From Marivivens niveibacter (GTDB taxonomy: Bacteria > Pseudomonadota > Alphaproteobacteria > Rhodobacterales > Rhodobacteraceae), in NCBI RefSeq assembly GCF_002150005.2, contig NZ_MSPP01000005.1, positions 1 to 64,000 on the forward strand: a stretch of 64,000 nt of DNA, given 5' to 3'. This document shows, in pieces, positions 26,083 to 55,692 of this stretch. The notes beneath the pieces were generated by a model, which saw only the letters and a list, made by a program, of their open reading frames with translations, was not told the origin of the DNA and did no database searches. Each line of letters begins with the position of its first letter. Position 1 is the first letter of the stretch. The position numbers and the translations under genes were made by a program.

Positions 26083-26105
26083 TTTGTGTCTCCTCGTAAC
26101 GATAC

Positions 26106-29416: not shown

Positions 29417-29543
29417 ATCATCCTCCCTATGTGTCGAAATCGGCCAATTGACGAAACGCCATAGCACGCTCAACTTCTCCTTATCGATTGTGCTACATCA
29501 GCCGGTCATGGTGGAATTTTCACCAATCTGGGCACATAAGGTT

Positions 29544-29557: not shown

Positions 29558-29690
29558 TAAGTCAATACCTAAAATTTGCTAACTTTCGTACCTTCAATCT
29601 CAGCTTAGCCTCAGCACATATTTGCATCGTTTCTCATTGCAGGTCGGATTTGCGACGGTCGTCCTAACGCAGAAAATTTTGGGACACGTT

Positions 29691-31396: not shown

Positions 31397-31418
31397 TTTC
31401 GTCAAATAGGTGACTAAC

Positions 31419-38492: not shown

Positions 38493-39401
38493 GTGCGTTT
38501 GCCACATCTAGCATGGTTGCGCGCATTCGAAGCAGCCGCACGACACAGCAGTTTTTCCGATGCCGCTGGCGAATTGCACCTGACACCTGCGGCTGTCAGT
38601 CAACAAATCCGTCTTTTGGAACAGCATCTGGGCGTTCAACTGTTCAAACGTTTGCCGCGAGGTGTTGAATTGACAGACTTGGGGCAGGCCTATGCGTTGC
38701 CCATCCGCAGGTCATTTACCGACATGCAAAGCGCAACAGAGTCGTTGTTCACGGTTCGCAGACAACGAAAAATCCGTATCCGCGCCTCTATCAGTTACGC
38801 GACCTTGATCCTTGCGCCGAGGCTACATGAATTTCGGGCGATGTATCCCGACATCGAAATCGAACTGACCACCGCCGTTTGGTCCGACCGCATGGATGTT
38901 GATGGCATAGATTTCGATGTCAGGTACGGCCGCGGCCAATGGCTCGAGGCTGACATAATTTCACTAGGTCAAGAGAACGCAGTGTTGGTGTGCAGCCCAC
39001 AGAACAAAATTGATGGACACGACACAGGGGTCGCGTTGGCGGCGCAGCTGGGGGCGGGGGTCGTGCAAATTATTGGCTCCGAAACCGAATGGGGCCGTCT
39101 GATCGACCATCATGAAATAGATATGCCTAATCTACCTATTTTGATGAAGGTGGATTCATCGCTGGTTGCGTTGCAATCCGTAGTGTTCGGCCAAGGAACC
39201 GCCCTGATTTTCGAAAGCTTGGCACAGCCGTTCATTGATCGCGGCGAATTGGTTGTTGCCGCCGATCTGTCTTTTCCGATCGACGACAATTATTATCTGG
39301 TGTCCCGCGATGGCGTTTCCCAAAATCCGGAACTGGCCGCATTTCAGGAATGGATTCAATCCATCTCGGTCGCTTTCGCCACCAATGCGCCGCGCGACTG
39401 A
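38493..39401 (+). CDS. LysR-family regulator (GcvA-like)
   Basis: 302 residues with a winged helix at 1-60 (LPHLAWLRAFEAAARHSSF and LTPAAVSQQIRLLE) and the GcvA-like start of this subfamily. The start is GTG at 38493 with AGGAGG 6 bases upstream. It is divergent from the GMC operon, its likely target; the 170-base gap should hold both promoters. Its end overlaps the convergent kdgK gene by 46 bases, so transcription of the two could interfere. Confidence 0.87.
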   Translation: MRLPHLAWLRAFEAAARHSSFSDAAGELHLTPAAVSQQIRLLEQHLGVQLFKRLPRGVELTDLGQAYALPIRRSFTDMQSATESLFTVRRQRKIRIRASISYATLILAPRLHEFRAMYPDIEIELTTAVWSDRMDVDGIDFDVRYGRGQWLEADIISLGQENAVLVCSPQNKIDGHDTGVALAAQLGAGVVQIIGSETEWGRLIDHHEIDMPNLPILMKVDSSLVALQSVVFGQGTALIFESLAQPFIDRGELVVAADLSFPIDDNYYLVSRDGVSQNPELAAFQEWIQSISVAFATNAPRD

Positions 39402-40279
39402 ACAACCCGCGCAGCCAATTCGGCACCGCCTTTGATTGCCCATTCGATGTCCCCAGATCCAAATCGCGCCAAAAACCCAGCGTTAAAACTGTCGCCTGCG
39501 GCGGTGGTATCTGTGACTTCGGTGATCGGTGCGACGGGGTATTCCCCGCTGTGCCCATTGTGTTCAAATAAAACAGGATCAGGTCCATTTTTCACGATGA
39601 CAGTCGGAATGCCCAGTGCCTTGTAACGGTTCAGCGTAGCCATTGGGTTTTCGTCGTGAAACCATTCGGCCTCGTCTTCGAAAGATGGCAAAACGATCGT
39701 GCTAACCGCTGCGCCTTGCATGATAGCCGATGTCATTGCATCAGCCGTTTCCCACAACCGAGGCCGCAAATTCGGGTCAAATACAATTGTTTTGCCTGCC
39801 TCTTTGGCCGTTTTCAAAGCCGCCAGAAAACCCTGCCGCGATTTGTCGGGCAAGATCGCTAGCGTAATTCCTGAAAAATAGATGACATCGTTTTCAGAAA
39901 ATGCCGTCGCCAGTTTTTGTGGATCGTCTGCGAGCTTTTTCGCCGCGGATTGGCCACGCCAGTAATGAAAACTGCGTTCACCGTTTTGCAGCGAAATCAT
40001 GTACATGCCGATAGTCTGGTTTTCCAAATGCTGCACATAGTTTTCTTTGATGCCGGACTGCGCAAACAGGTCCATCATCTGGCGGCTTAGGCTGTCGTCA
40101 CCAATCGCCGTCAAAAACGAAACATCCGTATCCGGCGACAAACGCGCCAGATACCAAGATGTGTTAAACGCATCACCCGCAAAGCCTAGACGATATTCAC
40201 CGTCTTGGGCTGTTGGCGATAATTCAGCCATACATTCGCCGATTGCTAAAAATCGGTTTTGGGGCAGGGGGCTGGTCAT
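39356..40279 (-). CDS. kdgK: 2-dehydro-3-deoxygluconate (KDG) kinase
   Basis: 307 residues of the PfkB sugar-kinase family. The start at 40279 (MTSPLPQNRFLAIGECMAEL) forms an ATGA overlap with kdgF; further upstream codons lie inside kdgF. The C-terminal PfkB signature TDTTAAGDSFNAGFLARF carries the catalytic aspartate, and GFAGDAFNTSWYLARL the sugar-binding loop. KDG kinase makes KDPG, which an aldolase (not in the window) splits to pyruvate and glyceraldehyde 3-phosphate. As last gene of the alginate operon it completes the route from unsaturated uronate. Confidence 0.9.
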   Translation of the reverse strand: MTSPLPQNRFLAIGECMAELSPTAQDGEYRLGFAGDAFNTSWYLARLSPDTDVSFLTAIGDDSLSRQMMDLFAQSGIKENYVQHLENQTIGMYMISLQNGERSFHYWRGQSAAKKLADDPQKLATAFSENDVIYFSGITLAILPDKSRQGFLAALKTAKEAGKTIVFDPNLRPRLWETADAMTSAIMQGAAVSTIVLPSFEDEAEWFHDENPMATLNRYKALGIPTVIVKNGPDPVLFEHNGHSGEYPVAPITEVTDTTAAGDSFNAGFLARFGSGDIEWAIKGGAELAARVVQSRGALVAKATEMD

Positions 40280-40587
40280 AGAAAATCGTCGCGGCGCGGC
40301 GTGAATGAATCGATCAGCACACCAGGCTCTAGGCAGATACAACCGTGGGTCATTCCTGACGGAATAACAAAGCTATCTCCAGCCGCGACGATCTTTTCCT
40401 CTTTGCCCAAAGTGAAACGGAACTTGCCGCTTTTGACGTAGGTCGATTGGACATGTGGATGGTCGTGCAGCGCGCCCTCTGCGCCGGATTCTTCGAAACG
40501 GAATTCAACCACCATCAAATCAGGATGATCCGACAGCACCTGACGGGTCACATCTTGGGACGTTGGAATAATTGGGAATTGAGCCAT
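40276..40587 (-). CDS. kdgF: KdgF-type cupin, unsaturated uronate linearising enzyme
   Basis: A 103-residue single cupin. Metal ligands fit the KdgF pattern: His41, His43 and Gln47 in LHDHPHVQSTYV, and His81 in GMTHG. KdgF speeds the ring opening of 4,5-unsaturated uronate, released by alginate or pectin lyases, to the linear ketose. It lies between the SDR gene and kdgK in the alginate operon, exactly where that step is needed. The stop overlaps the kdgK start. Confidence 0.88.
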   Translation of the reverse strand: MAQFPIIPTSQDVTRQVLSDHPDLMVVEFRFEESGAEGALHDHPHVQSTYVKSGKFRFTLGKEEKIVAAGDSFVIPSGMTHGCICLEPGVLIDSFTPRRDDFL

Positions 40588-40603: not shown

Positions 40604-41344
40604 TTATGAAAACAGCGTACCGCCGTTTATGTCGATATTTGTACCAGTCATAAAACCGGACTGATCGGTTGCTAAGAACGCAACCAAATTTGCGATATCC
40701 TGTGGGACACCTTGGCGTTTCAAAGGCGTTGCTGCTTCGACGTTGCGACGCACTTCGTCTTTTGTGTGTACATTGTGAAAATCGGTATCGATCATGCCGG
40801 GGCAAATGCCGTTTACACGAATTTCTGGCCCCAGTTCTTTGGCCAAGCCACGTGTCATCGCCATGACCGCACCTTTGGATGTGGCATAGGGTACAGCACC
40901 AGGTCCGCCGCCATCGCGGCCGGCTTGGCTCGCGATATTAACGATGGTGCCGGTTTTCATGTGCGATAGGCAGGCGCGAGTCATCAGGAACATGCTGGTC
41001 AAATTCAGATCCATCACCGTGTTCCAATGTTCTAGCGACATTTCAGTGATCTTTTGGCGCGCAACAAGGCCGCCAGTATTGTTCACCAAAACATCGATGG
41101 AACCGAATTCTTTGACGGCCAAATTAACAACCTTGTCCACGCCTTCTTGCGTATTCAGGTCAGCTTGAACCGCAATAGCTTGCCCGCCGAATTTGGCGAC
41201 TTCACCGATGGTATCATGCGCAGATGCGGCGCTGGAAAAATAATTGATGATGACATTGGCACCCAAGCGGGCCAATTCGACTGCACAGGCCCGCCCAATA
41301 TCGCGGCCGCCACCTGTGACGATTGCAGTTTTACCCTTTAGCAT
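40604..41344 (-). CDS. SDR-family reductase, probable DEH (unsaturated uronate) reductase
   Basis: 246 residues of a classical short-chain dehydrogenase: cofactor loop TGGGRDIGRA, the NNTGG variant of NNAG, catalytic Ser in NIASQAG and Tyr/Lys in YATSKGAV. In alginate pathways an SDR (A1-R of Sphingomonas) reduces 4-deoxy-L-erythro-5-hexoseulose uronate (DEH) to KDG. Genes for the lyase lie on one side and for KdgF and KDG kinase on the other, so this role fits well, though 3-oxoacyl reductases look similar. AAGGA precedes the ATG. Confidence 0.83.
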   Translation of the reverse strand: MLKGKTAIVTGGGRDIGRACAVELARLGANVIINYFSSAASAHDTIGEVAKFGGQAIAVQADLNTQEGVDKVVNLAVKEFGSIDVLVNNTGGLVARQKITEMSLEHWNTVMDLNLTSMFLMTRACLSHMKTGTIVNIASQAGRDGGGPGAVPYATSKGAVMAMTRGLAKELGPEIRVNGICPGMIDTDFHNVHTKDEVRRNVEAATPLKRQGVPQDIANLVAFLATDQSGFMTGTNIDINGGTLFS

Positions 41345-41365: not shown

Positions 41366-43684
41366 TTAAGTGTTTGCCAGTTTTTTCATGACCACTTTGA
41401 AGGTGTGTTCTTCGGGGTCGGTGAAATACAGGTCGGCGTCATAGCCCTGGTCGTCCATGAAATGGAAAATCCGCTTTGGCGTTTCCAATTTATACGGCAC
41501 CAGTAATGTCGCGATGCGATGCCGTGTTGATGCAGGGTAGCGGGCCACCATGCATGTACTTTGTGGCAGGTCTTGGATTTCGTCGGGGTTCACATCAGGA
41601 AAACCGGTGAATTGCGTGAACTCTGGTTTGCCAGCCTCTGACCAGACGCATTGGCCATAGAAACCCGCCCGTTCGCCCGCGTTTTTGAACGACGTTTTAC
41701 CCAGCTCGAACCGATTATTTGCGTGCAGCAACCAGTCGATGGTCACCGGAGTTTCGGCGTCGATTTTGTCGACGATGACAAAGTAGCTGTTTCTAACGAA
41801 ATAGATTTCGCGCTCGGCCAATGTGACTTCGGGGGACAGGCTTTGGTAAGCGGCTGTTGCGTCCCCACGGATATAGCTGTGATCGGCAAATTCTTCGGCG
41901 GCCAAAATTTTACCTGTGGCGCGCATAGCCCGAGATTTGTCTTTCTCAGCATATTGGCCTTTGCCATTGATCAAAATGGCGTTTTTGGAACGAGTCTGAC
42001 GACGCCACTGACGGTGCATGGACGAATTGAACGCAACATAGTGACCAGATTGGATCGCCAGATCTTCGCCGTATGCCGCCAAACAAAACGCGTTTTGGTC
42101 GCCGTGACTGTGACTGATCGACCCGTACTGAGATGATTTGAACACAAACTGAATGTGGTTATCAGGGTCTGCCATTGCGTGCTGAATACCGACCCAGCCG
42201 ATACCGCGGAAATGGCGCAGTCCGCCCGACGGTTGGGTAGCTTCGACGACAGGGAAATCGGTTTGGAATACCATTTCGTCGAAATTCGTGTCCCACCAGC
42301 CCCAATTGTAGAAAGCCATTTCAGTGCCCGGATTCAGGCGCAGGTTTTCATCGCAATACCACTGATATTCACCTTTGCCCGTCACACCTGCAAACTGGCG
42401 CATGTTGAGACCGGTTTTGATGCACGGCAGATCGCCCTGTGTGCTGTCATCGCCAAATGTCGCGCGGCGTGTGTTTGGCGCCTTGCAGAACAGTGGGAAA
42501 TCACCCGTATTTTGAAAAAACGGACGATCGTACAGATTGATACCTGTGTAGGATTTCAAACGGTTGGCGGCATCGATCAGATAGGCCATGCCCATCATCC
42601 AATAGTTGGTGCCTTCGGCCCAACCACCGTCTGCATCGCCCCAAGGCGAATAGACCGTCGATAGAAACTCGATGCAGTAATTCAGCCAATCGCGAACTTC
42701 GTCGTTTTCATCTTCACCCAACAAAGCAATGCACGCAGGCACGATCGTTAAGGATACGGAACGAACAGCATGGCTGTCGTACGGAAAGAGGTGAATTTTC
42801 GCATTAACGATGGCGTGCTCTGCGATATCGCGGGTGCGGGTCAGCAGGACGTCGCGAACCTTGGTGCGTTCATCATCCGATAGTTCGTCGTATAGCCAGT
42901 CAAATCCCCAGGATAGGGCATTTGTCACGCGATAGGCCCATTCATCGGTATAAGACCGAGAAGTTACGCCCATCGGATCCCATGATGCGATTTCTAACAA
43001 CCATTCCTTGGCGCGCTGGGTCATGTCCGCATTGCTGGTCACGCGCCCACCAATGGCTAGGTGACGGACGGCGTACCATGCTTCTTGCAGATCGATATAG
43101 GTTTGCCGCCAGACTGGCGCGACGCGTTGGTGATTTGGATATCCTGCGGGTTCCCGCATCACATCGCGATCCATCCACGGCAAAACCGATTTTTCGTAGA
43201 ACGTCGACCAACTATAGGCCTCTGGATCATTGCTAACGGTTTCGGTGAATCCGTCCAATCGGTCAGAGGTCATCCACAAGCGGGGATGCGCCGTCGAAGC
43301 GTTTTCAAAACGTTTGTCGCGCCCAACCAGCGGAGTTTGGGGCAAACCTGGCGTGATTTCAAAACTACGTGTCTGGCTCCATTCAGTGGTCGGTTCGCCC
43401 GCATCATCACAAACGGCATATGACCAATAATGAACCCCGTCTTTGAAATACTGGTCTGGTGTGAAGAAATTCAAAGGCAGTTTTGAAAATTCCTGCGTCT
43501 TTGCAGGCGCAAATTCTGGATCTGACGACACACGTAGGACATACAGCGCGTCGTCATCGATCACCGGCAACCATGTAAACCTAGGTGGGTTTTCTGCGAC
43601 ATCGGTGTCTTTGGTCGGGCTATAATCGATCGTTAGACGACCAGCTTTGGGTTCATCTAGTTTGTACAAAGTATCGGCGAGCAT
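41366..43684 (-). CDS. PL15 exolytic oligoalginate lyase
   Basis: 772 residues, close in length and sequence style to the Agrobacterium exo-alginate lyase Atu3025 (PL15). It has an N-terminal beta domain (TENPPRFTW-like start), an alpha/alpha barrel with FPYDSHAVRS and WAEGTNYWMMGMAYL, and a C-terminal heparinase II/III-like beta domain with SISHSHGDQNAF. These hold the expected catalytic His and Tyr. No signal peptide is seen, so it should act in the cytosol on imported oligomers. The ATG at 43684 is chosen with AGGAC 6 bases before it; a GTG 19 codons earlier lies in a hairpin. Confidence 0.9.
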   Translation of the reverse strand: MLADTLYKLDEPKAGRLTIDYSPTKDTDVAENPPRFTWLPVIDDDALYVLRVSSDPEFAPAKTQEFSKLPLNFFTPDQYFKDGVHYWSYAVCDDAGEPTTEWSQTRSFEITPGLPQTPLVGRDKRFENASTAHPRLWMTSDRLDGFTETVSNDPEAYSWSTFYEKSVLPWMDRDVMREPAGYPNHQRVAPVWRQTYIDLQEAWYAVRHLAIGGRVTSNADMTQRAKEWLLEIASWDPMGVTSRSYTDEWAYRVTNALSWGFDWLYDELSDDERTKVRDVLLTRTRDIAEHAIVNAKIHLFPYDSHAVRSVSLTIVPACIALLGEDENDEVRDWLNYCIEFLSTVYSPWGDADGGWAEGTNYWMMGMAYLIDAANRLKSYTGINLYDRPFFQNTGDFPLFCKAPNTRRATFGDDSTQGDLPCIKTGLNMRQFAGVTGKGEYQWYCDENLRLNPGTEMAFYNWGWWDTNFDEMVFQTDFPVVEATQPSGGLRHFRGIGWVGIQHAMADPDNHIQFVFKSSQYGSISHSHGDQNAFCLAAYGEDLAIQSGHYVAFNSSMHRQWRRQTRSKNAILINGKGQYAEKDKSRAMRATGKILAAEEFADHSYIRGDATAAYQSLSPEVTLAEREIYFVRNSYFVIVDKIDAETPVTIDWLLHANNRFELGKTSFKNAGERAGFYGQCVWSEAGKPEFTQFTGFPDVNPDEIQDLPQSTCMVARYPASTRHRIATLLVPYKLETPKRIFHFMDDQGYDADLYFTDPEEHTFKVVMKKLANT

Positions 43685-43714
43685 AGGTCGTCCTAATGCA
43701 AAAATGTCAGAAAA

Positions 43715-43744
43715 TGCGTGGCCGAGGATGGACTCGGCCACGCA
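43715..43744 (-). terminator. strong hairpin after the AlgQ-like gene
   Basis: A perfect 12-base inverted repeat (TGCGTGGCCGAG with its complement, 6-base loop) lies 17 bases after the binding-protein stop and 30 bases before the PL15 start. On the minus strand it is followed by TTTTCTGACATTTTT. It may partly terminate transcription or protect the upstream message, so that the binding protein is made in excess of the enzymes downstream. Confidence 0.7.
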
Positions 43745-43761: not shown

Positions 43762-45324
43762 TCAGCCGTATTGGCGCGCGTACGCCGAGTTCATGACTTC
43801 AAGGACTTTCTGGTAGCCCATGTTGTTCAATGTCTCGATGTAGTCGGACCAATCCTGTTCGATATCACCAGAACCCAAAATCCACGCCTGTTGACGTTCC
43901 AGCATGTAGGTCTGGATCGTTGGCCAATAGCGGTCGTAGATTTCTTGTTCGTCTTTGGTAAAGGCGACGCCTAGGAACTGATCCACCAACAAATCTTGGG
44001 TGTCATATAGTTCAATGCCGTCACGCGCGGCTTGGGCAGTCCACTGCCATTCGTAACGGTAATCTTGTGGGTAACCACGATAGATTTGTGCGCCTTCCAG
44101 ATACATTTGGCTGTTCACAGCCGTGTCAGAATTCAGAACCTCGTCCGTAAAGACCGGCTCTCCGTCGACCATGTTCCAGGTTTTGCCTTCGACACCAAAG
44201 TTTGCCAGCAGCGCTCCTTCTTCTGAGAAGAAATAGTCGAAGTATTTGATGGTTTCGACAGGGTTTTCATTGGCATAGGTGATCGCCCAGCCATCTGGTT
44301 TGATTGGAATGCGGCGATGTTCTTCCATGCGGACGCCACCAGCGGATTCAGGCGGTAGGAACGGAATAAAGTTGAAACCGTCGACCTTGTCCGCAAGCGC
44401 CGCGTTATAACCAGATGTCGATGCGAACCAATCGTGGGTCATACCGCCTAGGTTTTCACCCAACAAATAGTCACGCGACGATGATCCACGCGTGAAAATT
44501 TCGGCGTCGATCAGGCCTTCGGCATACCATTTCGCCAGATTGGCCATACCGTTACGATAGGCATCTTGGGCATAGGGGTGCGCAATGGTGTTTTCCGCGG
44601 TGATAAAGAAATCGTGGTACGTATCCGAACCCGAGGTACGGGCATCCCACAGGGTCATCAGGCGCAGCACTTCTTCCCAATCTCGGGCAAAGTAGGGCAC
44701 TTCGTCTGCCTGACCGTTGCCGTTCGGATCGTTGTCACGGAAAGCGACTAGAACATTATATAGTTCGTCAACGTTGTTTGGCGTTTCCAGACCCAGCGCA
44801 TCCAGCCAGTCCTGACGAACGAACCACGCACGGCCATATTTGCCGTCTGGCAGGTACGGGATGTAATAGTAATTGCCGTCATAGGCGGAAATCGCAGCCT
44901 GAAGCCCAGGGTGTTCATCCCAGAAACGTTGAATGTTTGGTGCATGTTCAGCAACCAGATCATTCAGCGGCACAAACGCGCCCTCTGGACCGTATTGGTT
45001 GACCGGTTGTTTGATACGGTTGCCACCAACGATGTCAGGCAAATCACCACTGGCCAGCAACAGGTTCATGGCTTCGTTGTTGTCTTTGGTGTTGCGACCC
45101 GAAGTTTGGTCAATCAGATGAATGTTGGTGCGTTCGCGGGCGAATTCCTCGACCGGGTACAGCACGGATGTGTCACCACCTGGGCCATAGCCTTGCGCGC
45201 GCGGCCAGTGCATGTGAACCGTTAGTTCCAGTGGTTCGTCAACGATTGGCAAATCTTGCGCCATGACAGGCGCGGTCATTGCTGTCGTCGCCAGCATGGC
45301 CATTGGTAAAGTCAAAATTCGCAT
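43762..45324 (-). CDS. algQ: AlgQ-like alginate oligosaccharide-binding protein
   Basis: 520 residues with a signal peptide ending near VMAQD. The mature start ELTVHMHWPRA, the segment LLLASGDLPDIVGGN, the calcium loop DNDPNGNGQADEVP and LGGMTHDWFAST match the Sphingomonas A1 AlgQ1/AlgQ2 proteins, which bind alginate oligomers and deliver them to AlgM1M2SS. Such long family-1 binding proteins are diagnostic of this transporter type. The ATG at 45324 has GGGAGGA upstream; 11 further open codons lack a signal sequence. It follows algM2 by 29 bases. Confidence 0.92.
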   Translation of the reverse strand: MRILTLPMAMLATTAMTAPVMAQDLPIVDEPLELTVHMHWPRAQGYGPGGDTSVLYPVEEFARERTNIHLIDQTSGRNTKDNNEAMNLLLASGDLPDIVGGNRIKQPVNQYGPEGAFVPLNDLVAEHAPNIQRFWDEHPGLQAAISAYDGNYYYIPYLPDGKYGRAWFVRQDWLDALGLETPNNVDELYNVLVAFRDNDPNGNGQADEVPYFARDWEEVLRLMTLWDARTSGSDTYHDFFITAENTIAHPYAQDAYRNGMANLAKWYAEGLIDAEIFTRGSSSRDYLLGENLGGMTHDWFASTSGYNAALADKVDGFNFIPFLPPESAGGVRMEEHRRIPIKPDGWAITYANENPVETIKYFDYFFSEEGALLANFGVEGKTWNMVDGEPVFTDEVLNSDTAVNSQMYLEGAQIYRGYPQDYRYEWQWTAQAARDGIELYDTQDLLVDQFLGVAFTKDEQEIYDRYWPTIQTYMLERQQAWILGSGDIEQDWSDYIETLNNMGYQKVLEVMNSAYARQYG

Positions 45325-45353
45325 AGTTTCCTCCCTGTTGCGAATGTTGAGGT

Positions 45354-46235
45354 TCATTCCTTCACTCCTCCCAGCAGGATGCCCTTGCTGAAATATTTTT
45401 GTAGGAATGGGTAAATCAGGACGATCGGTATGATCGAACAGACGATGATCGACGCGGTGACGGTTTCGACCGAATAGGACGCGTTCAGTAGAGATGTTGC
45501 GAATTCTTCGTCATCTGACAGTTCAGCAATCACCTTGCGTAGGTATACCTGCAGCGGAATTTTTTCTTCGTCTTGCAGCAGAACCATGGCCCAAAAGAAC
45601 CCGTTCCAACGCGATACGATACAGAACAACGCGACAGTTGCGATCGCAGGTTTCGACAGAGGCACATAGACGCGCCACAGAACCTGAAATTCATTTGCGC
45701 CATCCATCCGCGCGGCTTCTTCGAAACTTTGCGGAATACCTTCGAAAAAGTTGCGCAACAGGATGATGTTGAAACCACTTACGGCAAAGCCGATGATGAT
45801 GCCGAAATAGCTGTCCAGCAGACCCAGATCCCGCATGTTCAAAAAGAACGGGATCAAACCTGCGTGGAACCACATCGTAAAAGCGACCATCAGGTTCCAA
45901 AACCTGCGACCATACAGTTGCGGACGCGACAACGCATAGGCACCTGGAATGATCAGGATCAGACTCATCAGGGTACCAAAGATGGTATAGATGAACGTGT
46001 TTTTGTAGCTGATCCAGAACTGCGGCTCGCTTAGCACTTTGGAATAGGCTTCCAGAGTAAAGCCAACCGGCGTCAAGATGACGTTGCCTGCTCTGGCTTC
46101 GAAACCTGCGCTCATCGACAACGAAGTGATGTAGATGAACGGATAGAGCGTCGACAGTGCGAACAATCCGATCAGGACCATGTTGGTGATGACGAATAGT
46201 TTGTCACCGCGCGAATACAGATTCATGTTTGCCAT
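45354..46235 (-). CDS. algM2: AlgM2-like ABC transporter permease
   Basis: 293 residues with six helices and the EAA loop for ATPase contact (FEEAARMDGANEFQVLWRVYVPLSKP). It forms the membrane channel with AlgM1. A run of G (GGGGGG) lies 8 bases before the ATG, and algM1 ends 12 bases upstream. Assignment to alginate rests on the AlgQ-like partner and the lyase downstream. Confidence 0.9.
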   Translation of the reverse strand: MANMNLYSRGDKLFVITNMVLIGLFALSTLYPFIYITSLSMSAGFEARAGNVILTPVGFTLEAYSKVLSEPQFWISYKNTFIYTIFGTLMSLILIIPGAYALSRPQLYGRRFWNLMVAFTMWFHAGLIPFFLNMRDLGLLDSYFGIIIGFAVSGFNIILLRNFFEGIPQSFEEAARMDGANEFQVLWRVYVPLSKPAIATVALFCIVSRWNGFFWAMVLLQDEEKIPLQVYLRKVIAELSDDEEFATSLLNASYSVETVTASIIVCSIIPIVLIYPFLQKYFSKGILLGGVKE

Positions 46236-46247
46236 GATGTGCCCCCC

Positions 46248-47246
46248 TTACCAAAGCGACGTACGCGAGAAGCGTTTGGAAATTGCGTTGGCGGTCATAA
46301 CCAGAATGAAAGCAACGACAGCATTGAATAGACCTGCGGCAGCTGCGAAATCGTATTGGCCACCTTGCAGACCTTGGCGGTAGATAAAGGTGTTCACGAC
46401 ATCTGCGGTCGAATAGGTCGCTGGCTGGTACAGCAGGATGATCATCTCGAACGACACCTCTAGGATGTTACCGATGCGGATGATCAGCATGATGATGATG
46501 GTCGGCAGGATCGACGGCAGCGTGATTTTCCACATCATTTGCCAACGAGACGCACCATCGACGACAGCGCTTTCATACAGCGTGGGCGAAACGCCCGCGA
46601 TCGCGGCCAGATAGACGATTGATTGGAAACCTGCCTCTTGCCAAATGCCTGTTCCGATAAAGATCGGACGGAACCATTCGGGGCGCGTTAGGAAATACAC
46701 GGAATCCACGCCGAACCATCCAAGGATCGTATTCACGATACCTGCCGACGGCGAAAATGCGGTTATGACGATACCTGCGATAATCACCGAAGAGATGAAA
46801 TGCGGCAGATACACGATCGTCTGCGTGGTCTTTTTGAACTTTTGGCTCAAGACTTCGTTGAACATTAGCGCCAGCAAAATGGGCACCGGAAATCCAAACA
46901 ACAGCCCATAGGCACTAATGATCAGCGTGTTTTTCACCGCACGTAGGAATTGATCATTGCTGAAAAGCGTCTGGAAATGTTCAAAGCCGATCCAAGGGCT
47001 GTTCGCGACGCCTTTGAAAATCGAATAGTCTTTGAACGCTATCTGCAGGCCGTACATAGGTTTGTACAGAAACACGATCAGCCAAACGACCATTGGCAGC
47101 AGCATGATATACAGCTGCCATTCGCGTTTCAGGTGATCACCAACGCGCTGGATTTGTGCGGCGCGACGTTCGCGCACAGACTCTTTCGCGTTTACAACCA
47201 GTGTTTCTGTTGCAGGCGATCCGGCGGTGTCGAAATCGCTGCTCAT
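46248..47246 (-). CDS. algM1: AlgM1-like ABC transporter permease
   Basis: 332 residues with about six helices after a charged cytosolic N-terminus, like AlgM1 and LplB-type permeases. The EAA loop is YESAVVDGASRWQMMWKITLP. Its ATG overlaps the stop of the ATPase gene (ATGA), so the subunits are coupled. It works with AlgM2, AlgS and AlgQ to import alginate oligomers. Confidence 0.9.
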   Translation of the reverse strand: MSSDFDTAGSPATETLVVNAKESVRERRAAQIQRVGDHLKREWQLYIMLLPMVVWLIVFLYKPMYGLQIAFKDYSIFKGVANSPWIGFEHFQTLFSNDQFLRAVKNTLIISAYGLLFGFPVPILLALMFNEVLSQKFKKTTQTIVYLPHFISSVIIAGIVITAFSPSAGIVNTILGWFGVDSVYFLTRPEWFRPIFIGTGIWQEAGFQSIVYLAAIAGVSPTLYESAVVDGASRWQMMWKITLPSILPTIIIMLIIRIGNILEVSFEMIILLYQPATYSTADVVNTFIYRQGLQGGQYDFAAAAGLFNAVVAFILVMTANAISKRFSRTSLW

Positions 47247-48346
47247 TGGGCTTTGCCCTGGCCTAACAACGCGCGGCCGGATTCTGCGTCGAACACACGG
47301 ATCATTTCAGGTGGGACCGTAAACGCGCCGACATTTTCCAAACGGTTGGACGACGTCATCGTCTCAGTGCGAATGACAAATGGCTTGTCTTGTAGCGTGG
47401 CGTGTAACAACGCCTCCGACCCCAAAGTTTCGATCAAATCAACAGTGATCGGCACTGCGCCTTTGGTGCCTGTTGGCTGTGGAACCGCAAATTCAGGACG
47501 GATGCCAATGATAATTTTTTCACCGACACAGTTTTGCAGCTCAGGCAGTCGTCGCAGCGGAACCTGCGCAGACCCAACAATAGCAATCGGACCAGAGTCA
47601 GAGGCACCTACTGTCGCCTCGACCATATTCATTGGGGGCGATCCCAAAAATTCGGCCACGAATGTATTTGCAGGATATTGGAACAGCTCCATCGGGGTGC
47701 CGACCTGTTCGATACGGCCGTCGTGCATAACAACAATCCGGTCCGCCAGCGTCATCGCCTCGACTTGATCGTGGGTCACGTAGATAGAGGTTACGCCCAA
47801 ACGTTTGTGCAAACGTTTGATTTCAGCGCGCATTTGCGTGCGCAATTTAGCGTCTAGGTTCGACAACGGTTCGTCGAATAGGAAAACCTTTGGCTGACGC
47901 ACAATCGCGCGGCCCATTGCGACACGTTGGCGTTGGCCACCCGACAAATCCGCTGGACGGCGCTTTAGATAATCGGTCAGACCCAAGATGCCTGCGACTT
48001 CTTCGACCGAAGATGCGATTTTTTCTTTGCTTTCTTTCCGAATGCGCAGACCAAAACCAATGTTATCTTCGACGTTCAAATGCGGATACAGCGCGTAGTT
48101 TTGGAAAACCATCGCCACATCGCGGTCTTTTGGCGCAATGCGGTTTACGACGCGGTCGTCGATTTTCAGCGACCCACCAGAGATTTCCTCTAGTCCTGCG
48201 ATCATCCGCAAGGTTGTCGATTTTCCGCAGCCCGATGGGCCGACTAGAACGACAAATTCTTTTTCTTGAACCTCTAGATCAATGCCGTGGACAACCTGAA
48301 AACCACCATAAGCTTTCGTAATGCCCTCGAGATTTACGCCCGACAT
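47243..48346 (-). CDS. algS: AlgS-like ABC transporter ATP-binding protein
   Basis: 367 residues of the MalK/UgpC class: Walker A GPSGCGKST, signature LSGGQRQRV, Walker B VFLFDEPLSNLD, then a C-terminal regulatory OB domain. The start at 48346 (MSGVNLEGITKAYGG) has GGGAGGGG just upstream; 13 further open codons are not conserved. It is the first gene of the alginate operon and is divergent from gntR, with two operator palindromes between them. MalK-type ATPases can serve several importers. Confidence 0.9.
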   Translation of the reverse strand: MSGVNLEGITKAYGGFQVVHGIDLEVQEKEFVVLVGPSGCGKSTTLRMIAGLEEISGGSLKIDDRVVNRIAPKDRDVAMVFQNYALYPHLNVEDNIGFGLRIRKESKEKIASSVEEVAGILGLTDYLKRRPADLSGGQRQRVAMGRAIVRQPKVFLFDEPLSNLDAKLRTQMRAEIKRLHKRLGVTSIYVTHDQVEAMTLADRIVVMHDGRIEQVGTPMELFQYPANTFVAEFLGSPPMNMVEATVGASDSGPIAIVGSAQVPLRRLPELQNCVGEKIIIGIRPEFAVPQPTGTKGAVPITVDLIETLGSEALLHATLQDKPFVIRTETMTSSNRLENVGAFTVPPEMIRVFDAESGRALLGQGKAQ

Positions 48347-48414
48347 GGCCCCTCCCCAAATGCGCAGGCGCGATAGCGGCTGCAAAATGTTTGATTGATT
48401 CGTTTCTCCCGCAA

Positions 48415-48428
48415 ACTGGTATACTAGT
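48415..48428. promoter_or_regulatory. GntR operator 1 (alg operon / gntR)
   Basis: ACTGGTATACTAGT is a near-perfect palindrome (one mismatched pair). The identical 14 bases occur inverted at 29544-29557, and a one-base variant at 55666-55679. It contains the FCD-GntR core TGGTATAC. It lies 69 bases before algS. Confidence 0.75.
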
Positions 48429-48435
48429 AATATAT

Positions 48436-48447
48436 CTGGTATACCAG
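48436..48447. promoter_or_regulatory. GntR operator 2 (alg operon / gntR)
   Basis: CTGGTATACCAG is a perfect 12-base palindrome. Its centre is 20 bases, about two helical turns, from the centre of operator 1, so two repressor dimers could bind on one face of the DNA. Confidence 0.75.
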
Positions 48448-48609
48448 TTTAAATTATGCTATTGCATATCCGAGGAGTTCTTGACCCAGGGTCAGATTCA
48501 GAAAATAAACCATTGATTGATCCGGAATGGGCCAAGGTTAGCCCTGCACCGGATCAGTTAAAAACATGCCGCGATGCCACTTGCGCGCATGTCGAGGAGG
48601 ACGACGCAA

Positions 48610-49299
48610 ATGGCCCAGCAACATCAGATGAGTGAACGACGAACCAGCGTTGACGAAATTTTTGATTATCTGAACGACGAAATTCTGTCGCTGCGACTGC
48701 TACCAGGGGACAAACTGTCCGAAGCTGAAGTCGCCGCCAGTTTCGGCGTTTCGCGTCAACCTGTGCGCGATGCCTTTAGCCGTTTGGCGATTAAAGATTT
48801 GATCGTCGTTCGTCCGCAACGTGCCACTGTGGTCAAACGGTTTTCCGTACGTGAAATTACGAAATCGCGCTTTGTCCGGTCCGCCATTGAAAAAGAGGTG
48901 CTTCGCCGTGCGGCCGCTTTGTGCAATGCTACACACGCGGACCAGTTAGATGCTGCAATCGCCGAACAGACACGCTGCATGGATGGCGGTGATTTTGATA
49001 AATTTGGCCAGTTGGATTACGATTTCCACAAATTGATCTGCGATATCGCAAACGCTGATTTTGCCTTTGATGTGATCCAAGCGGAAAAATCCAAAGTTGA
49101 TCGCCTATGCGTTCTAGGTTTGTCGAAAGAAGACAGAATGCCAGAACTGTTGAGCGATCATTCCTCCATAGCCGAGGCCATCAAAGCCAACGATCCTGAT
49201 CGTGCGGTAGAGTTCGGCATGAAACACCTGTCGCGTTTGGATGAAACCATCGAGGCCATCCAGAAAAAGAACGCAAATTATTTCGAACCTTACGAATAA
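48610..49299 (+). CDS. FCD-type GntR regulator of alginate/uronate use
   Basis: 229 residues with a GntR winged helix (residues 10-75; VDEIFDYLNDEIL and FGVSRQPVRDAFSRL) and an FCD effector domain whose metal-site residues fit D-x3-H (LDYDFHKLI) plus later histidines (DHSSIAEAI, KHLSRL). The ATG at 48610 has GAGGAGG 9 bases upstream. FCD regulators of hexuronate genes bind TGGTATACCA-like sites, and two such sites lie in the shared gap with the alg operon. The ligand is probably a uronate or KDG. It likely represses its own gene, the alg operon and the distant sites. Confidence 0.85.
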   Translation: MAQQHQMSERRTSVDEIFDYLNDEILSLRLLPGDKLSEAEVAASFGVSRQPVRDAFSRLAIKDLIVVRPQRATVVKRFSVREITKSRFVRSAIEKEVLRRAAALCNATHADQLDAAIAEQTRCMDGGDFDKFGQLDYDFHKLICDIANADFAFDVIQAEKSKVDRLCVLGLSKEDRMPELLSDHSSIAEAIKANDPDRAVEFGMKHLSRLDETIEAIQKKNANYFEPYE

Positions 49300-49384: not shown

Positions 49385-50731
49385 ATGGCCGGTCCAAATC
49401 AGACCCCGAAAAACAAAGATGTTTTAAACTTGGCATGGCCCATGACGGTCAAAGCCATCATGCTACATGGCACTGTTGTCATTGATACTTTGCTTGTCGC
49501 GCCTTTGGGCGAAGCTGCATTGGCCGCGATGGCCCTAGCCACCGCCGTGGCAGGGTTTGTTCTGGGCATCATCCTTGCGATCGCGAATGCACTACAAATT
49601 CGCGTTGCGCAGGCGAAAGGAACGGCCGATCAGAATTTCATCAGAAGCACATTCTGGATTGGGATTGGCATCAATATCTGCGTCGGCCTATCCGGCCTCC
49701 TCACCATTCTGATATTTGGCGACGACGTTATACATATCATGGCGCAAGTCCCAGATTTGAACGCCATGGCGAACGACTACCTATCGATCTTCGTCATCGT
49801 GATCCTAGGCGAAGCATTAGGGCAAGCGCTGTCCAGTTATTTCAACGGGCTGGGCAACACTCGATTGCCAATGTTCAGCTATTTATTGTCTGTGCCCGTG
49901 AACATCATCGCAAGCCTGATTTTCATTCACGGGGTCGGGTTTGTACCTGAATTCGGGATCAAGGGCGCGGCAATCGGCAGTGCAATCGCGGTCAGCGCCC
50001 AAGCCATATTTTTAGCAATCTGCGCCTATAGATCTCAGACTTCTCTGCCAGATGTTTGGCATCACGGTAGCGTCGCCAACGCATTATCGCGACACATGAA
50101 ATTTGCTTTGCCGATTGTCGTAACCTTTGTCAGCGCCGCCTTTGCCACTCATATTTGCACGCTGATATATGCAAAAATGGCCCTGAATGATTTCGCCGCT
50201 CTTGCCATCATTTCACCTTGGATCATGGTCGCGGGCACCATCGGGATGCAATGGGCCCAAGCTTCTGGCATAATTGTCGCGCATATGTTGGGGCAGGGCG
50301 CAGATGCCGATGACCTGAACCGTTTCTTGAAACAGGCATGGTTTGGCGCTGCGGGGTGTGCAATCTTTGTGGCGCTTACGTTTGGGGGTATGTGTCTGTT
50401 GGTAGACGTTTTTTACCCCAGTCTGACCGAAGAAACGCTCCGTCTGCTGATCGCCTTTCTACCAATTCTAGTCCTGCTACCGTTTCCCAAAGGTTCAAAC
50501 GCGATGTGCGGCAACACGCTGCGCGCAGCGGGCGATACGATCGCGGTCATGCACATCTTTGTCTGGTCGCAATGGTTATTTCGCGTGCCCGCGACGGCGC
50601 TGTTTATACTAGTTTGGGATTTAAACGCCGTGTGGGTACTGTCGATCCAACTGATCGAAGAGGTGATGAAATTTCCGCTGTTTCACAGACGGTTTCTATA
50701 TAGTGACTGGCGTTCGGGCCGACTACTTTAG
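49385..50731 (+). CDS. MATE-family efflux transporter
   Basis: 448 residues with twelve helices and the MATE pattern: AWPMTVKAIMLHGTVVIDTLLVAPLGEAALAAMALA at the start and a second half with LRAAGDT. These exporters use sodium or proton gradients to expel cationic drugs or metabolites. It follows gntR by 85 bases and could be co-transcribed, though no link with alginate is known. Its end overlaps the convergent TetR gene by 4 bases. Confidence 0.85.
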   Translation: MAGPNQTPKNKDVLNLAWPMTVKAIMLHGTVVIDTLLVAPLGEAALAAMALATAVAGFVLGIILAIANALQIRVAQAKGTADQNFIRSTFWIGIGINICVGLSGLLTILIFGDDVIHIMAQVPDLNAMANDYLSIFVIVILGEALGQALSSYFNGLGNTRLPMFSYLLSVPVNIIASLIFIHGVGFVPEFGIKGAAIGSAIAVSAQAIFLAICAYRSQTSLPDVWHHGSVANALSRHMKFALPIVVTFVSAAFATHICTLIYAKMALNDFAALAIISPWIMVAGTIGMQWAQASGIIVAHMLGQGADADDLNRFLKQAWFGAAGCAIFVALTFGGMCLLVDVFYPSLTEETLRLLIAFLPILVLLPFPKGSNAMCGNTLRAAGDTIAVMHIFVWSQWLFRVPATALFILVWDLNAVWVLSIQLIEEVMKFPLFHRRFLYSDWRSGRLL

Positions 50732-52055: not shown

Positions 52056-52079
52056 TGGGGTGATCGAATGATCACCCCA
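52056..52079 (+). terminator. terminator hairpin after the AhpD-like gene
   Basis: TGGGGTGATC and GATCACCCCA form a perfect 10-base stem with a 4-base loop, followed by TTTT on the plus strand. It overlaps the stop codon of the convergent uxuA gene, so it may serve both genes. Confidence 0.75.
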
Positions 52080-53289
52080 TTTTCCCAAATTGCGAATGTG
52101 TCAGCGCGGCCTGTATCCCGCGCAACTCTGCCAACCCTTTTAGTCGACCGATTGCGGGATAACCCGGCTGAGTAGGGCGACCATGATCATCCAAAATGTT
52201 CTGCCCATGATCAGGCCGATACGGAATTGACCAATCACAACGGCCAGCAGCGATACGTTGACTTTCCTGCCTTGCGACGGCCGCCATTAATCCGACCATA
52301 TCAGTGCCGCCGGTCAAATGTTCTGCCTCATGAAAACTGCCGACGATGTCCGTCGTTTCCAATTGGACATTTCGCAGATGTAGGAAATGAACCCGATCGC
52401 CCCATCGGTCCATCATTCCAATCACATCATTGTCTGAACGCGCGCCCAACGACCCAGAACATAACGTTATTCCATTGGACCGCAGATCAACCGCATTCAT
52501 AATATGTGCATAGTCTGCCTCGGTCGACATGACACGAGGCAATCCCAGCAGCGGAAACGGTGGATCATCAGGATGACAGCACAAACGCACGCCGACCTTT
52601 TTGGCGAATGGCGCGACCTCGGACAGGAAATCGATCAAGTGCGAACGGAGTTTATCCGCAGAAATCCCGTCGTAGGTCGCTAGCCGTTCACGAACATCAT
52701 CCAACGTCAGGTTTTCTGCCGCCCCAGGCAGGCCAGTCACAATGCTAGAGGAGAGCTGTTTGCGTTGCACGTCGGACATTGATTGAAACCGTTCGCCGGC
52801 CTGATGATAGACCGTATCATCGAAATCGTCGGTCGCCGCGTCGCGCTGCAAGATAAACAGATCGAACGCAGCGAAATCGATCAAATCAAACCGCATGCAG
52901 GTCGCACCGGTTTTTAGGCGGTAATTCAGATCCGTACGGGTCCAATCCAAAACCGGCATGAAATTATAACAGACCGTTTCGATCCCTGCGGTTTTCAAGT
53001 TCTGAAGGCTTTCACAATACGCACGAATATGGGCGCGAAAATTGCCTGACTGTCTTTTGATATCTTCGGATACAGGCAGGCTTTCGACTACATCCCAAGA
53101 CAATCCAGACGGATCGCCATTTTGCATCACTGCGATCTGCTGTTGTCGTTTGCGAATTTCATCAATCGGCCACGTCGCTCCGGGTGGCAAATGGTGCAGG
53201 GCGGTCACAACGCCCTGAACGCCCGCTTGCACCATATCGTCGATCGAAACGGGATCGTTCGGACCGAACCAACGCCACGTTTGTTTCAT
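52072..53289 (-). CDS. uxuA: mannonate dehydratase
   Basis: 405 residues matching UxuA: N-terminus MKQTWRWFGPNDPV, the TALHHLPPG segment, and metal-site motifs including CCHPDDPPF, CSGSLGAR and HFLHLRNV. UxuA dehydrates D-mannonate to KDG, the same intermediate as the alginate route, and KDG kinase is encoded in the nearby operon. It lies downstream of the PL7 lyase gene with only 27 bases between the T-tract of that gene's terminator and its own ATG, so it is probably reached by read-through. AGGA precedes the ATG. Confidence 0.92.
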   Translation of the reverse strand: MKQTWRWFGPNDPVSIDDMVQAGVQGVVTALHHLPPGATWPIDEIRKRQQQIAVMQNGDPSGLSWDVVESLPVSEDIKRQSGNFRAHIRAYCESLQNLKTAGIETVCYNFMPVLDWTRTDLNYRLKTGATCMRFDLIDFAAFDLFILQRDAATDDFDDTVYHQAGERFQSMSDVQRKQLSSSIVTGLPGAAENLTLDDVRERLATYDGISADKLRSHLIDFLSEVAPFAKKVGVRLCCHPDDPPFPLLGLPRVMSTEADYAHIMNAVDLRSNGITLCSGSLGARSDNDVIGMMDRWGDRVHFLHLRNVQLETTDIVGSFHEAEHLTGGTDMVGLMAAVARQESQRIAAGRCDWSIPYRPDHGQNILDDHGRPTQPGYPAIGRLKGLAELRGIQAALTHSQFGKMG

Positions 53290-53355: not shown

Positions 53356-55620
53356 TTAATTTTCGATCACGTCGATGCGGACATTTGTAAAATCAATCCC
53401 GTTGTCCGCAGTATTGGGATCCTTGGACGAACCAAAGGTTTTGGAATTCACATGGAACGCCAGCATTCCGATATTTTCCAAACCGGTATCAGGGTCAGCG
53501 ACCGCAAAGGTCGATACCAAAACGCCATCTTGGTACAGTTCACCAGCGACCGTCAGGCCATCATCATCGCGCGTCACCGAAATGACCCCTGTGTAGGCGG
53601 TATTGGGACGGAACTCGTATGGATCACCACCGCGTCCAATTTTACTATAGCCTTTGGTCGTACCCAAAAGCCGACCTTGGGTATCCACGTTGTGTCGCAG
53701 CACAGAAATTGCTGATTGCGTCGCATCGGTCATGCCAACATCGAACGCGATCATGTAGCCAGGCAAACCATCGTATAATGGTTGGGGTCGGCTGGACGAC
53801 GCCGACAAATCCGCGCGCAGTTGCTCGCGCCCCAAGGTATCAAACAATCCAATACGAAACGCAGAGTCGCGGTCGGTGCCTATTGTTTCTGGTGTCACAA
53901 AATCAAAACGGGATTGAAGTGTTTGCCCAACGGCCAGTCTTTGAGGTTCAAACACCGTTCGAATGCCGCGCCCCGACGTACCAGACACCAAACCCAGACT
54001 GTCTTGCCCAACTTCGATTGCAGCGCTGGTCGTCGTTGTCCACCAATTCACATCAGTTGCATCGGCACCATCGTCGCGGCCGCCATCCGTAAAGCTATCG
54101 TCAAAAATGACCCCAGCCGTCGCCATCGGCACGTCAACTGGTGCGCTATTGATCGGTTCAGCCCCACCTTCATGTGCAGGTGGTTCGTCGTGTTCGTAGT
54201 CCAGCGCAAAGAACGTCACCCGATCAAAATCACGTGCCGGATCGGGGCTCGAGTTGTTTTGCGAATAGGCACCGGCCTTAAAGAACATGAACTCATCAGC
54301 GACGCTAAACCCACTGTTGCGCATATCGAACGGCTCGGATTCAACAACCGACCCGTCATCGCGGATGATTTTCACGTATAGCATCGGAATAATGGCATCG
54401 CCTTCGGCTAAGCCGTCAACTTTGATTTCATAAGAGAACACTTCATCCAGCGCGATTCCGTCATCTGGATTTGGGGCCCAATTTGCACGCGACCCGATGA
54501 TTTCCACCCACTGTTCTGGCCCAGTTGCAGGTTCATGCGCAAAGTAAATCGAACCAAATTTATTCTGAGGCAGCTTGCGATAGTACAACCGAATGGGTTC
54601 ATCGTCTTTTGCGTGGATCTGGCCGATAATCACCCGTCCAATTTGGCTATCGATGCCCTGACGGGTAACTTGATTAACGGACAAAGTCGCTCTCATCACG
54701 CCATCAACACCGCCCGCTGCAGCCTGCGCTTCGATCGGAGCAGAAGAGAAAACCCAGTTGTTTTGATTTGGATAGCCCCCATCGACACGGGTTGCGATCG
54801 TTTCGTCGCCAGCGCGCAGCATACCGCGCAGTTCCGTTCGGGAATAGTTTGTGTTCGCCGATGTTTTCGCGCCGTTTGTCGTTGAAATAAAAACCATTCC
54901 GCCCGTCGCAGGGTCCGTAAAGAAATAGCGCGGATCCGTCCAACCAGCGGCCAGTTCGTTTTCATAGACACTGTCCGATTTTCCATCGGCGTTATCATCT
55001 GCGGGTGTGGTGACATACCAACCTGTCAGATCAAAATTCATTGCAGGCGCAACAGTAGGGTCTAGGCCGAACATACCGCCTGCACTGCGGCGCGGTGTCA
55101 GAACTGGTGTAATGGGTGCTTCAACGGATTCTCCACAGCCAACCACATTGATTTCAACAATCGAATTCCACGCGTTGGATTCATTTCCGTCGCCCAATAT
55201 GCGCACATATTGCGCGACCATCGGGGACAGATCGTAACGTTCAAATTCCAAGGTCTGACCGCTTGTTTCCCCAAAAGGGCGTACAGCAGTATAGCTTTGT
55301 CCATCTTCGGACATTTCGATAGAAAACGTGCTTTTGCGGCTGTCCCCTTTGTACCAAGCCACGTCCAATGCGGATACAGTCTGCTGCGCGCCTAGGTCCA
55401 ATACGATCGATCTTGGCGCCCCCTGTGATTCACTTGACCAGCGGGAATCCGGATCGAAATCACCATCTATAGTGTTCTCTGGACCATGGGTTTCTTCGTA
55501 GAAACCTTCGTCAGTCGCGGACACGATCGTCAGATTTCTAACGTTGTCGCAGCTTTGCGCAAATGACGGGGACGCGATGGTACAACCCAGCACAGCCCCC
55601 AAAAGTGGATACAACTTCAA
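53356..55620 (-). CDS. secreted PL7 alginate lyase with F5/8-type carbohydrate-binding module
   Basis: 754 residues with a signal peptide (to about AQS). Residues 24-163 form an F5/8 type C / CBM32-like module closed by Cys24 and Cys162. The PL7 domain (about 190-475) has the three signatures RTELR (261-265), QIH (334-336) and FFKAGAYSQ (446-454). A third beta-sandwich domain (about 500-754) resembles LamG/concanavalin folds. The enzyme should cut alginate outside the cell. The start is TTG at 55620, supported by AGGGAGG 8 bases upstream. A GntR operator lies 46 bases before it. Confidence 0.92.
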   Translation of the reverse strand: MKLYPLLGAVLGCTIASPSFAQSCDNVRNLTIVSATDEGFYEETHGPENTIDGDFDPDSRWSSESQGAPRSIVLDLGAQQTVSALDVAWYKGDSRKSTFSIEMSEDGQSYTAVRPFGETSGQTLEFERYDLSPMVAQYVRILGDGNESNAWNSIVEINVVGCGESVEAPITPVLTPRRSAGGMFGLDPTVAPAMNFDLTGWYVTTPADDNADGKSDSVYENELAAGWTDPRYFFTDPATGGMVFISTTNGAKTSANTNYSRTELRGMLRAGDETIATRVDGGYPNQNNWVFSSAPIEAQAAAGGVDGVMRATLSVNQVTRQGIDSQIGRVIIGQIHAKDDEPIRLYYRKLPQNKFGSIYFAHEPATGPEQWVEIIGSRANWAPNPDDGIALDEVFSYEIKVDGLAEGDAIIPMLYVKIIRDDGSVVESEPFDMRNSGFSVADEFMFFKAGAYSQNNSSPDPARDFDRVTFFALDYEHDEPPAHEGGAEPINSAPVDVPMATAGVIFDDSFTDGGRDDGADATDVNWWTTTTSAAIEVGQDSLGLVSGTSGRGIRTVFEPQRLAVGQTLQSRFDFVTPETIGTDRDSAFRIGLFDTLGREQLRADLSASSSRPQPLYDGLPGYMIAFDVGMTDATQSAISVLRHNVDTQGRLLGTTKGYSKIGRGGDPYEFRPNTAYTGVISVTRDDDGLTVAGELYQDGVLVSTFAVADPDTGLENIGMLAFHVNSKTFGSSKDPNTADNGIDFTNVRIDVIEN

Positions 55621-55665
55621 CTCAACATCCTCCCTGATGTTCCTCTCCAGAGCTGATAATTGTCG

Positions 55666-55679
55666 ACTAGTATCCCAGT
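55666..55679. promoter_or_regulatory. GntR operator upstream of the PL7 lyase gene
   Basis: ACTAGTATCCCAGT differs by one base from the operator at 29544-29557. On the minus strand it follows TTGCCA, a plausible -35 box, and reads in the same direction relative to transcription as the TRAP copy. Confidence 0.68.
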
Positions 55680-55692
55680 TGGCAAGAAAATA

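Follow-up and report, generated by a model that had tools for sequence, protein, structure and literature searches.

Predicted operators of a GntR-family regulator at alginate-utilization promoters of Marivivens niveibacter, with a conserved GATTCG element beside one operator pair

The window, by which we mean the whole stretch of 64,000 nucleotides analysed here, carries on its minus strand an alg operon whose first gene encodes an AlgS/UgpC-like ABC ATPase (47243-48385, with the ATG probably at 48346). Two ABC permeases in the positions of AlgM1 (46248-47246) and AlgM2 (45354-46235), recognized by their Pfam domains and by comparison with relatives, are followed by a solute-binding protein resembling AlgQ1/AlgQ2 (43762-45357; match to AlgQ1 with E 2.7e-161) and by an oligoalginate lyase like 3a0o (41366-43741; E 0), which we take to be a PL15 enzyme. 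The operon continues with an SDR reductase that is a candidate DEH reductase by sequence match (40604-41344), a KdgF-like cupin (40276-40587; 8.8e-16 for KdgF, with a plain 'Cupin' entry scoring better) and a PfkB kinase that is a candidate KDG kinase (39356-40342; 251.7 bits against a KdgK model whose cut-off is 400). Divergent from these genes, on the plus strand, lie the gene for a GntR-family regulator with an FCD domain (48574-49299; the start may be 48610) and that for a MATE-family transporter (49385-50731), a frequent neighbour of gntR. In several genera, transporters of this family are often found next to the alginate gntR or the operator (loci L038, L041, L044, L085, L087 and L092).

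Two further operons, also on the minus strand, flank this region at a distance. One encodes a TRAP importer, with the solute-binding protein DctP (28439-29473, by sequence match) and DctQ (27852-28379) and DctM (26557-27840, both by Pfam domains), together with an NAD_binding_2 dehydrogenase (25210-26268) in the same operon. The other begins with a PL7 alginate lyase carrying an F5/8C domain (53356-55620, by sequence match); the UxuA mannonate dehydratase gene downstream of it (52072-53289) is, from gene order and strand, probably co-transcribed with it. Judged by their matches to solved AlgQ, oligoalginate lyase, PL7 and KdgF proteins, the importer and the lyases are alginate genes. Although the TRAP piece is 19 kb distant from the alg locus, it retains an operator, and among 15 relatives' loci that were compared similar DctPQM genes stand in or next to the alginate/GntR locus, with DctM 84-86% identical in five of them. 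These observations are among the reasons why we count the TRAP operon as a member of the putative regulon. In three relatives (L038, L039 and L041) an NAD_binding_2 dehydrogenase gene lies between the SDR and oligoalginate lyase genes. An operon of dehydrogenase, class II aldolase and TauD genes (29622-32537) runs in the opposite direction from the TRAP operon, with a single intergenic region between the two; we did not count it as a member, since its aldolase and TauD genes have no match in any of the 15 loci.

The intergenic region between gntR and alg contains two palindromes, O1 at 48416-48427 (CTGGTATACTAG; ACTGGTATACTAGT when taken as 48415-48428) and O2 at 48436-48447 (CTGGTATACCAG; CTGGTATACCAGT when read over 48436-48448), both given for the plus strand. 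Their centres are 20 bp apart by direct reading of the sequence, and O1 is kept in relatives. An inverted, identical copy of O1 stands ahead of the TRAP operon on the minus strand (operator 29545-29556, within the copy at 29544-29557), and a copy with one change, ACTGGGATACTAGT at 55666-55679, precedes the PL7 gene on the same strand (operator 55667-55678, CTGGGATACTAG). The PL7-gene operator fits the family consensus, CTGGNATACTAGT. An earlier note on this DNA had described these palindromes and both distant copies and had placed all of them between genes, and its description holds in each respect, the intergenic positions having been judged against open reading frames with Pfam domains. Within the window the paired arrangement is confined to the alg/gntR promoter, and the TRAP and PL7 promoters have one site each.

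The regulator matches PF00392 with 65.2 bits and PF07729 with 73.5 bits, both above cut-off, and by these domains is a member of the FadR (FCD) subfamily of the GntR family. The closest curated models, PhnR (82.7 bits) and NanR (70.4 bits), both remain below their cut-offs. The metal- and ligand-binding residues of the FCD domain, a D-x3-H motif and two further histidines, are all present in the window protein; they are at least 90% conserved in 40 close sequences and at least 85% in eight more distant ones. Retention of these residues fits a metal-assisted pocket for an acidic ligand. The earlier note had called the protein an FCD-type GntR and had likened the sites to those bound by UxuR/ExuR-type regulators of hexuronate genes; the FCD-type, FadR-subfamily part stands. 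Membership of UxuR/ExuR is not supported, as the protein scores 18.6 bits against a UxuR model with a cut-off of 442. The form of the sites does agree with the subfamily: CTGGTATACYAG has the GT-AT-AC arrangement of FadR-type operators, and O2 fits both the TKGT and the ACMA box, while the family consensus departs from these boxes in having ACTA on one side. In the cited passages, TKGT/ACMA boxes are described as shared across the FadR subfamily, with a 3-nt centre given for ExuR sites and a 2-nt centre for UxuR sites (PMC4494728). Because the boxes are subfamily-wide and the ExuR centre is of 3 nt, the motif by itself does not indicate hexuronates.

We collected operator arrays from 71 loci (the window, L038-L052 and L084-L138). 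Once duplicates had been left out, along with any cluster no more than 100 nt from the end of its locus, 35 clusters of at least two sites remained, 31 with two sites and four with three. The 39 distances between neighbouring sites are dominated by 20 bp (28 cases), followed by 13 bp (three), 33 bp (two, equal to 13 plus 20) and 21 bp (two), with all others occurring once each; the 8-nt spacers within pairs are variable. Triple arrays with 13-bp plus 20-bp spacing are found in L106, L108 and L116. Since 20 bp is close to two helical turns, this phasing suggests that two dimers would sit on one face of the DNA. A consensus drawn from 84 sites reads [AT]CTGGNATACTAGT, with CTGG on the left in 71 of the 84 and CTAG on the right in 78; these sites were picked by their fit, a choice that by itself makes the fixed positions invariant, and were oriented by the CTGG/CTAG asymmetry.

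How closely the sites follow the regulator can be judged from 394 genomes of the family. A search for the GntR protein gave matches at E up to 1e-45 in 69 of them, and in 39 of these 69 the best match is at least 57% identical. A strict 20-bp tandem pair occurs in 16 of the 394 genomes, every one of them among the 39 (Fisher p 3e-18, with relatedness ignored), and its reversed control in none; 15 of the 16 pairs flank an importer ATPase gene and one an SDR gene. The strict tandem pattern is absent from the other 23 of the 39 genomes. Individual loci were scanned with a score that allows the wobble positions plus one change at position 5 or 8. Among 30 GntR genes of 57% identity or more, the window's own included, 27 have operator sites in the roughly 3.7 kb around them (the 30 loci are a subset of 41 such places); the three loci without a site at the stricter score are L111, L113 and L119, of which L113 has none at the looser score either. 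The proportion falls to two of six loci for GntRs of 42-50% identity and to none of 19 for those of 32-41%, and none of 40 other stretches of the window's own genome has a site.

A search for CTGGNATACTAG in 101 relatives gave 19 matches, 14 at alginate loci and five elsewhere. Eight of the genomes have a GntR of 47% identity or more; the 14 belong to the alginate loci of six of these, and the other two have no match. For the PL7 gene, one other relative (G013) was found in 101 genomes, the window's own included; it has no operator site there, and the best GntR of that genome is 40% identical. With the sole other relative lacking a site, the assignment of the PL7 operator rests on the fit of its sequence.

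The same regulator clade is present on plasmids. A search of a plasmid collection found nine records with a GntR 57-68% identical, from Rhodobacteraceae SC52, Tropicibacter oceani, Paracoccus seriniphilus, Pseudooceanicola algae, Marinovum algicola, Antarctobacter heliothermus, two Jannaschia and Falsirhodobacter algicola, and a scan of named genomes for a close GntR gave one match, Jannaschia rubra. In seven of these plasmid loci, sites are found at gntR or TRAP promoters. Alginate-lyase genes, importer genes or operators adjoin the GntR gene in seven of the nine (L084-L092). Jannaschia W003 has no site in the 182 bases upstream of its GntR match, and Antarctobacter heliothermus, whose 57% identical GntR lies beside TRAP genes, has no consensus site. 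Instead, look-alikes with three mismatches, CTTGTATCCGAG and CTTGTATGCAAG, precede its gntR and its TRAP genes, and both promoters carry a diverged repeat, CTTGTATNCNAGATGNNATACCA (L089, 15880-15903 and 16807-16830), perhaps a co-evolved operator variant. With L113 and Antarctobacter as exceptions, the comparison of orthologous promoters that the earlier note had proposed finds the sites kept beside most orthologous regulators and TRAP genes.

A second conserved sequence accompanies the operators at the alg/gntR promoter. TGATTCG at 48396-48402 (plus strand), 13 nt from O1, fits the GcrA/CcrM-type motif YGAKTCG, and 17 nt after GATTCG a -10-like TATACT (48420-48425, plus strand) lies inside O1, as part of a putative promoter in the gntR direction. 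GATTCG or its inverse CGAATC is found within 60 nt of 28 of the 35 clusters on one side and of two on the other, compared with 1.4% of 60-mers drawn at random from a set of the loci. With the clusters oriented by their CTAG/CTGG asymmetry, the GATTCG-bearing side is that facing the importer gene in alg promoters, and GATTCG is the commonest 6-mer there. Not all clusters stand at importer promoters, and those without GATTCG include TRAP and SDR promoters. Searched as GATTCG-N9-17-CTGGNATACTAG, the combination is present in 16 of the 394 genomes, all within the set of 39 defined above, with none for the control; 15 of the 16 matches are beside an importer ATPase gene. A conserved YGATTCG is seen beside alg/gntR operators in relatives, for example in L084, L085, L088 and L094.

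Two readings of this element can be compared. In the first it is an ordinary -35 variant or the site of another regulator, unrelated to GcrA and CcrM; in the second it brings methylation into the control of the operon. The first reading, to which we give an even chance, draws on the regular geometry of the promoters in the gntR direction. In 18 of the 22 same-orientation cases the distance from GATTCG to the operator is 13 or 14 nt, and in 18 of 22 GATTCG stands 17 or 18 nt ahead of a TATACT-like -10, as a -35 variant might. It gains further from the behaviour of YGATTCG elsewhere: 54 of the 153 genome sites (from 41 stretches, mostly the first of the matches) have no fixed -10 offset. By a crude caller, 24 of these 54 lie outside called ORFs; in the window the same caller puts 72 of 248 positions and 27 of 78 GANTC sites there. 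The window itself is poor in the motif, with one YGATTCG (48396-48402) against 35.5 in shuffles and 80 GANTC against 264, but over the whole genome YGATTCG, with 153 occurrences, is only somewhat below the 204 of its reversed control, and density alone predicts about three per 64 kb. We therefore dropped the depletion in the window as an argument and slightly lowered our estimate of the coupling. Against an ordinary -35 box, the element is inverted to CGAATC in six of the 28 cases, which is unlike such a box, and it fits YGAKTCG in a genome that has gcrA and ccrM-like genes. GcrA is encoded with E 2.9e-48, with a CGAATCG some 100 bp ahead of its gene, and the genome has a single N6_N4 methylase ORF adjoining another ORF; by their sequence features these two are CcrM-like and rnhB-like, respectively.

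Support for the second reading also comes from Caulobacter, where the cited passages give YGAKTCG as the extended motif of GcrA-activated promoters (PMC7987155, reporting Haakonsen 2015), although according to the same passages no extended motif was found in Brevundimonas subvibrioides (PMC7987155). The alg/gntR promoter in Rhodobacterales may combine a substrate-released GntR repressor on phased operators with CcrM/GcrA through a methylatable YGATTCG, in which case replication-linked methylation would gate the induction of alginate catabolism or of its repressor. The modest genome-wide rarity, the lack of a -10 offset and the Brevundimonas exception bring this proposal close to the balance point, and we hold it tentatively, at slightly less than an even chance. 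In the likeness to the GcrA/CcrM promoters of Caulobacter as the cited passages describe them, a GANTC of YGAKTCG type lies in the promoter in both; the GANTC here differs in adjoining predicted operators of a catabolic repressor.

We next consider whether the adjacent GntR is the protein that binds the sites. A different regulator, for instance a paralogous GntR encoded elsewhere, could do so while the adjacent one controls something else. What gives this alternative some weight is a second GntR clade, 42-50% identical, which in several genomes adjoins TRAP genes with an almost identical operator (L039 4339-4998, L041 15972-16664, L199, L205, L207 and L209-L211). With operators so alike at TRAP promoters, assignment is ambiguous where both clades exist, and some genomes may have two regulators that share sites. 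In the genome studied here, however, a search at E up to 1e-20 finds only one GntR from the two clades together, and the strict tandem pairs are confined to genomes with the clade of at least 57% identity. Moreover, in G012, where gntR is apart from the alg operon, sites are present at both places. We regard a different regulator as improbable for these reasons, and return to the adjacent GntR in what follows.

The mode of action can be approached from the layout of the single-operator promoters. The earlier note had pointed to a -35-like TTGNCN ahead of the TRAP and PL7 operators, and these hexamers are indeed there as TTGACT (29560-29565) and TTGCCA (55680-55685). In the TRAP promoter a weak -10-like CCTTAT (29536-29541; three of six letters of TATAAT) follows after 18 nt, and in the PL7 promoter AATTAT (55656-55661; four of six letters) does so at the same distance. 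With the operator directly after the -35 and a -10-like hexamer 18 nt on, the operator would fill the promoter spacer. The arrangement TTGAC-N3-5-CTGGNATACTAG recurs in 15 of the 394 family genomes, with one match for the reversed control. Thirteen of the 15 sites are upstream of DctP or SDR-DctP genes, and the other two adjoin GntR genes of 37% and 27% identity. In an alignment of nine TRAP promoters, TTGAC stands four bases ahead of the operator in six; in the other three the operator is inverted and the TTGAC box is missing at that place. No sharp -10 is seen in the 15 TTGAC promoters, where the weak hexamers fit best at 17-18 nt: at least three letters of TATAAT are matched in eight of the 15 at 17 nt and in four at 18 nt, with means of 2.5 and 2.1 letters, respectively, against a background of 1.2.

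Activation of certain promoters is known for some FadR-subfamily proteins, and the GntR might accordingly be an activator of these operons. The TRAP and PL7 operators are directly downstream of the -35 in the promoter spacer, which is the position of a repressor, and AusR, an alginate GntR, is described in the cited passages as a repressor (PMC8286568). The operator position thus points to repression rather than activation, and we consider activation a shade less probable even than a different binding protein.

The rarity of the motif bears on whether the sites form a set at all. Allowing up to two mismatches, we find 12 operator matches in the window where 2.43 are expected, a number reached in none of 100 shuffles. 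The 3.07-Mb genome (12 contigs) has exact CTGGTATACYAG at three places, all of them in the window and all intergenic, whereas a first-order Markov model of the window predicts 0.05 per genome. Stray hits in unrelated genes had been named in the earlier note as a sign that would speak against the proposal. If exact and one-mismatch forms are taken together there are seven places, of which four are the window sites. The other three (L004, L005 and L007), each a one-mismatch site, all lie within long open frames, and on that account we rejected them as additional members of the regulon. Two mismatches give 162 genome matches on both strands, compared with 706 for the reversed control. Chance or a mobile repeat is a negligible explanation for the similarity of the sites, given 0.05 exact places expected against three found, conservation at orthologous promoters, and retention of the operator and GATTCG amid flanks that differ from genus to genus.

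We conclude that the sites are very probably operators of the GntR protein encoded at 48574-49299, most likely acting as the repressor of a three-operon alginate/uronate regulon; any cell-cycle or methylation input through GATTCG is left out of this estimate. The proposal of one repressor for lyase, importer and TRAP module made in the earlier note gains support, as a prediction, from the genome scan and the conserved promoters. In the model, GntR bound to the O1-O2 pair between the divergent genes would repress the importer-oligoalginate lyase-SDR-KdgF-KdgK operon as well as its own gene. From the single operator just after the -35 it would repress the TRAP-dehydrogenase operon, and from a similarly placed single operator the PL7-UxuA operon, whose membership we infer from the site. 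A small acidic breakdown product of alginate in the FCD pocket would release the protein, candidates being a short oligomer or a product akin to DEH or KDG. GATTCG beside O1 might also make the divergent alg/gntR promoter responsive to the cell cycle or to methylation.

Several known systems resemble this arrangement in part. AlgO is a GntR-type protein that binds upstream of algS, and we know of no TRAP branch, phased operators or GATTCG element for it. It is named in the cited passages as the transcriptional regulator of the alg locus of Sphingomonas sp. A1 (PMC8286568); the likeness is that of a regulator gene in a locus with an AlgSM1M2Q2 importer, comparable with the window importer and its AlgQ-like binding protein. 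AusR of Zobellia galactanivorans (Dudek et al. 2020) is, in the passages cited, a GntR-family protein that represses most alginate-use genes from single, double or triple operators, its binding being blocked by breakdown products (PMC8286568, PMC7874173). By that description the window is alike in having a GntR gene and candidate operators at alginate importer and lyase genes, with one to three predicted operators per promoter in these loci too. The host of AusR is a flavobacterium, in contrast to the alphaproteobacterium with AlgQ-type ABC and TRAP importers considered here. The alginate locus of Vibrio sp. C42 has GntR genes, as here, two of which are reported in the cited passages as induced on alginate (PMC13390454), and it differs in its importer (TTT).

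Likenesses also extend to other FadR-subfamily regulators. UxuR and ExuR of gammaproteobacteria belong to this subfamily, and the 2-nt centre of UxuR sites, as described in part above, is that seen here, but the window protein falls below the UxuR model and its predicted operator is CTGG...CTAG, often in 20-bp arrays. Escherichia coli NanR, which is of the FadR subfamily and among the nearer models, is described in the cited passages as binding with three dimers to an operator of GGTATA repeats (PMC8012715); those are direct repeats, whereas the sites here are palindromes 20 bp apart, sometimes 13 plus 20 bp. The titles and abstract openings surveyed in the open-licence literature show neither a GntR/alginate regulon of these bacteria nor a link between GcrA and alginate. 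Alginate GntR repressors with multiple operators are already known, as AusR illustrates in the passages cited, and coupling to a methylation site would be new. Phased arrays and the placing of the operator behind the -35 at TRAP promoters set the present system apart, as does, most of all, the conserved GANTC element.

The operator consensus and the promoter geometry define a testable alginate regulon for a family of marine alphaproteobacteria, and the consensus predicts pathway genes, among them those of the TRAP importer 19 kb away, which would otherwise seem unrelated. Should the GANTC element be functional, it would place a catabolic operon under epigenetic cell-cycle control and could couple polysaccharide use with replication in single cells. 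Elsewhere in the window (6563-9154), a CheB-CheR-PAS fusion protein is encoded near genes for HWE and hybrid histidine kinases.
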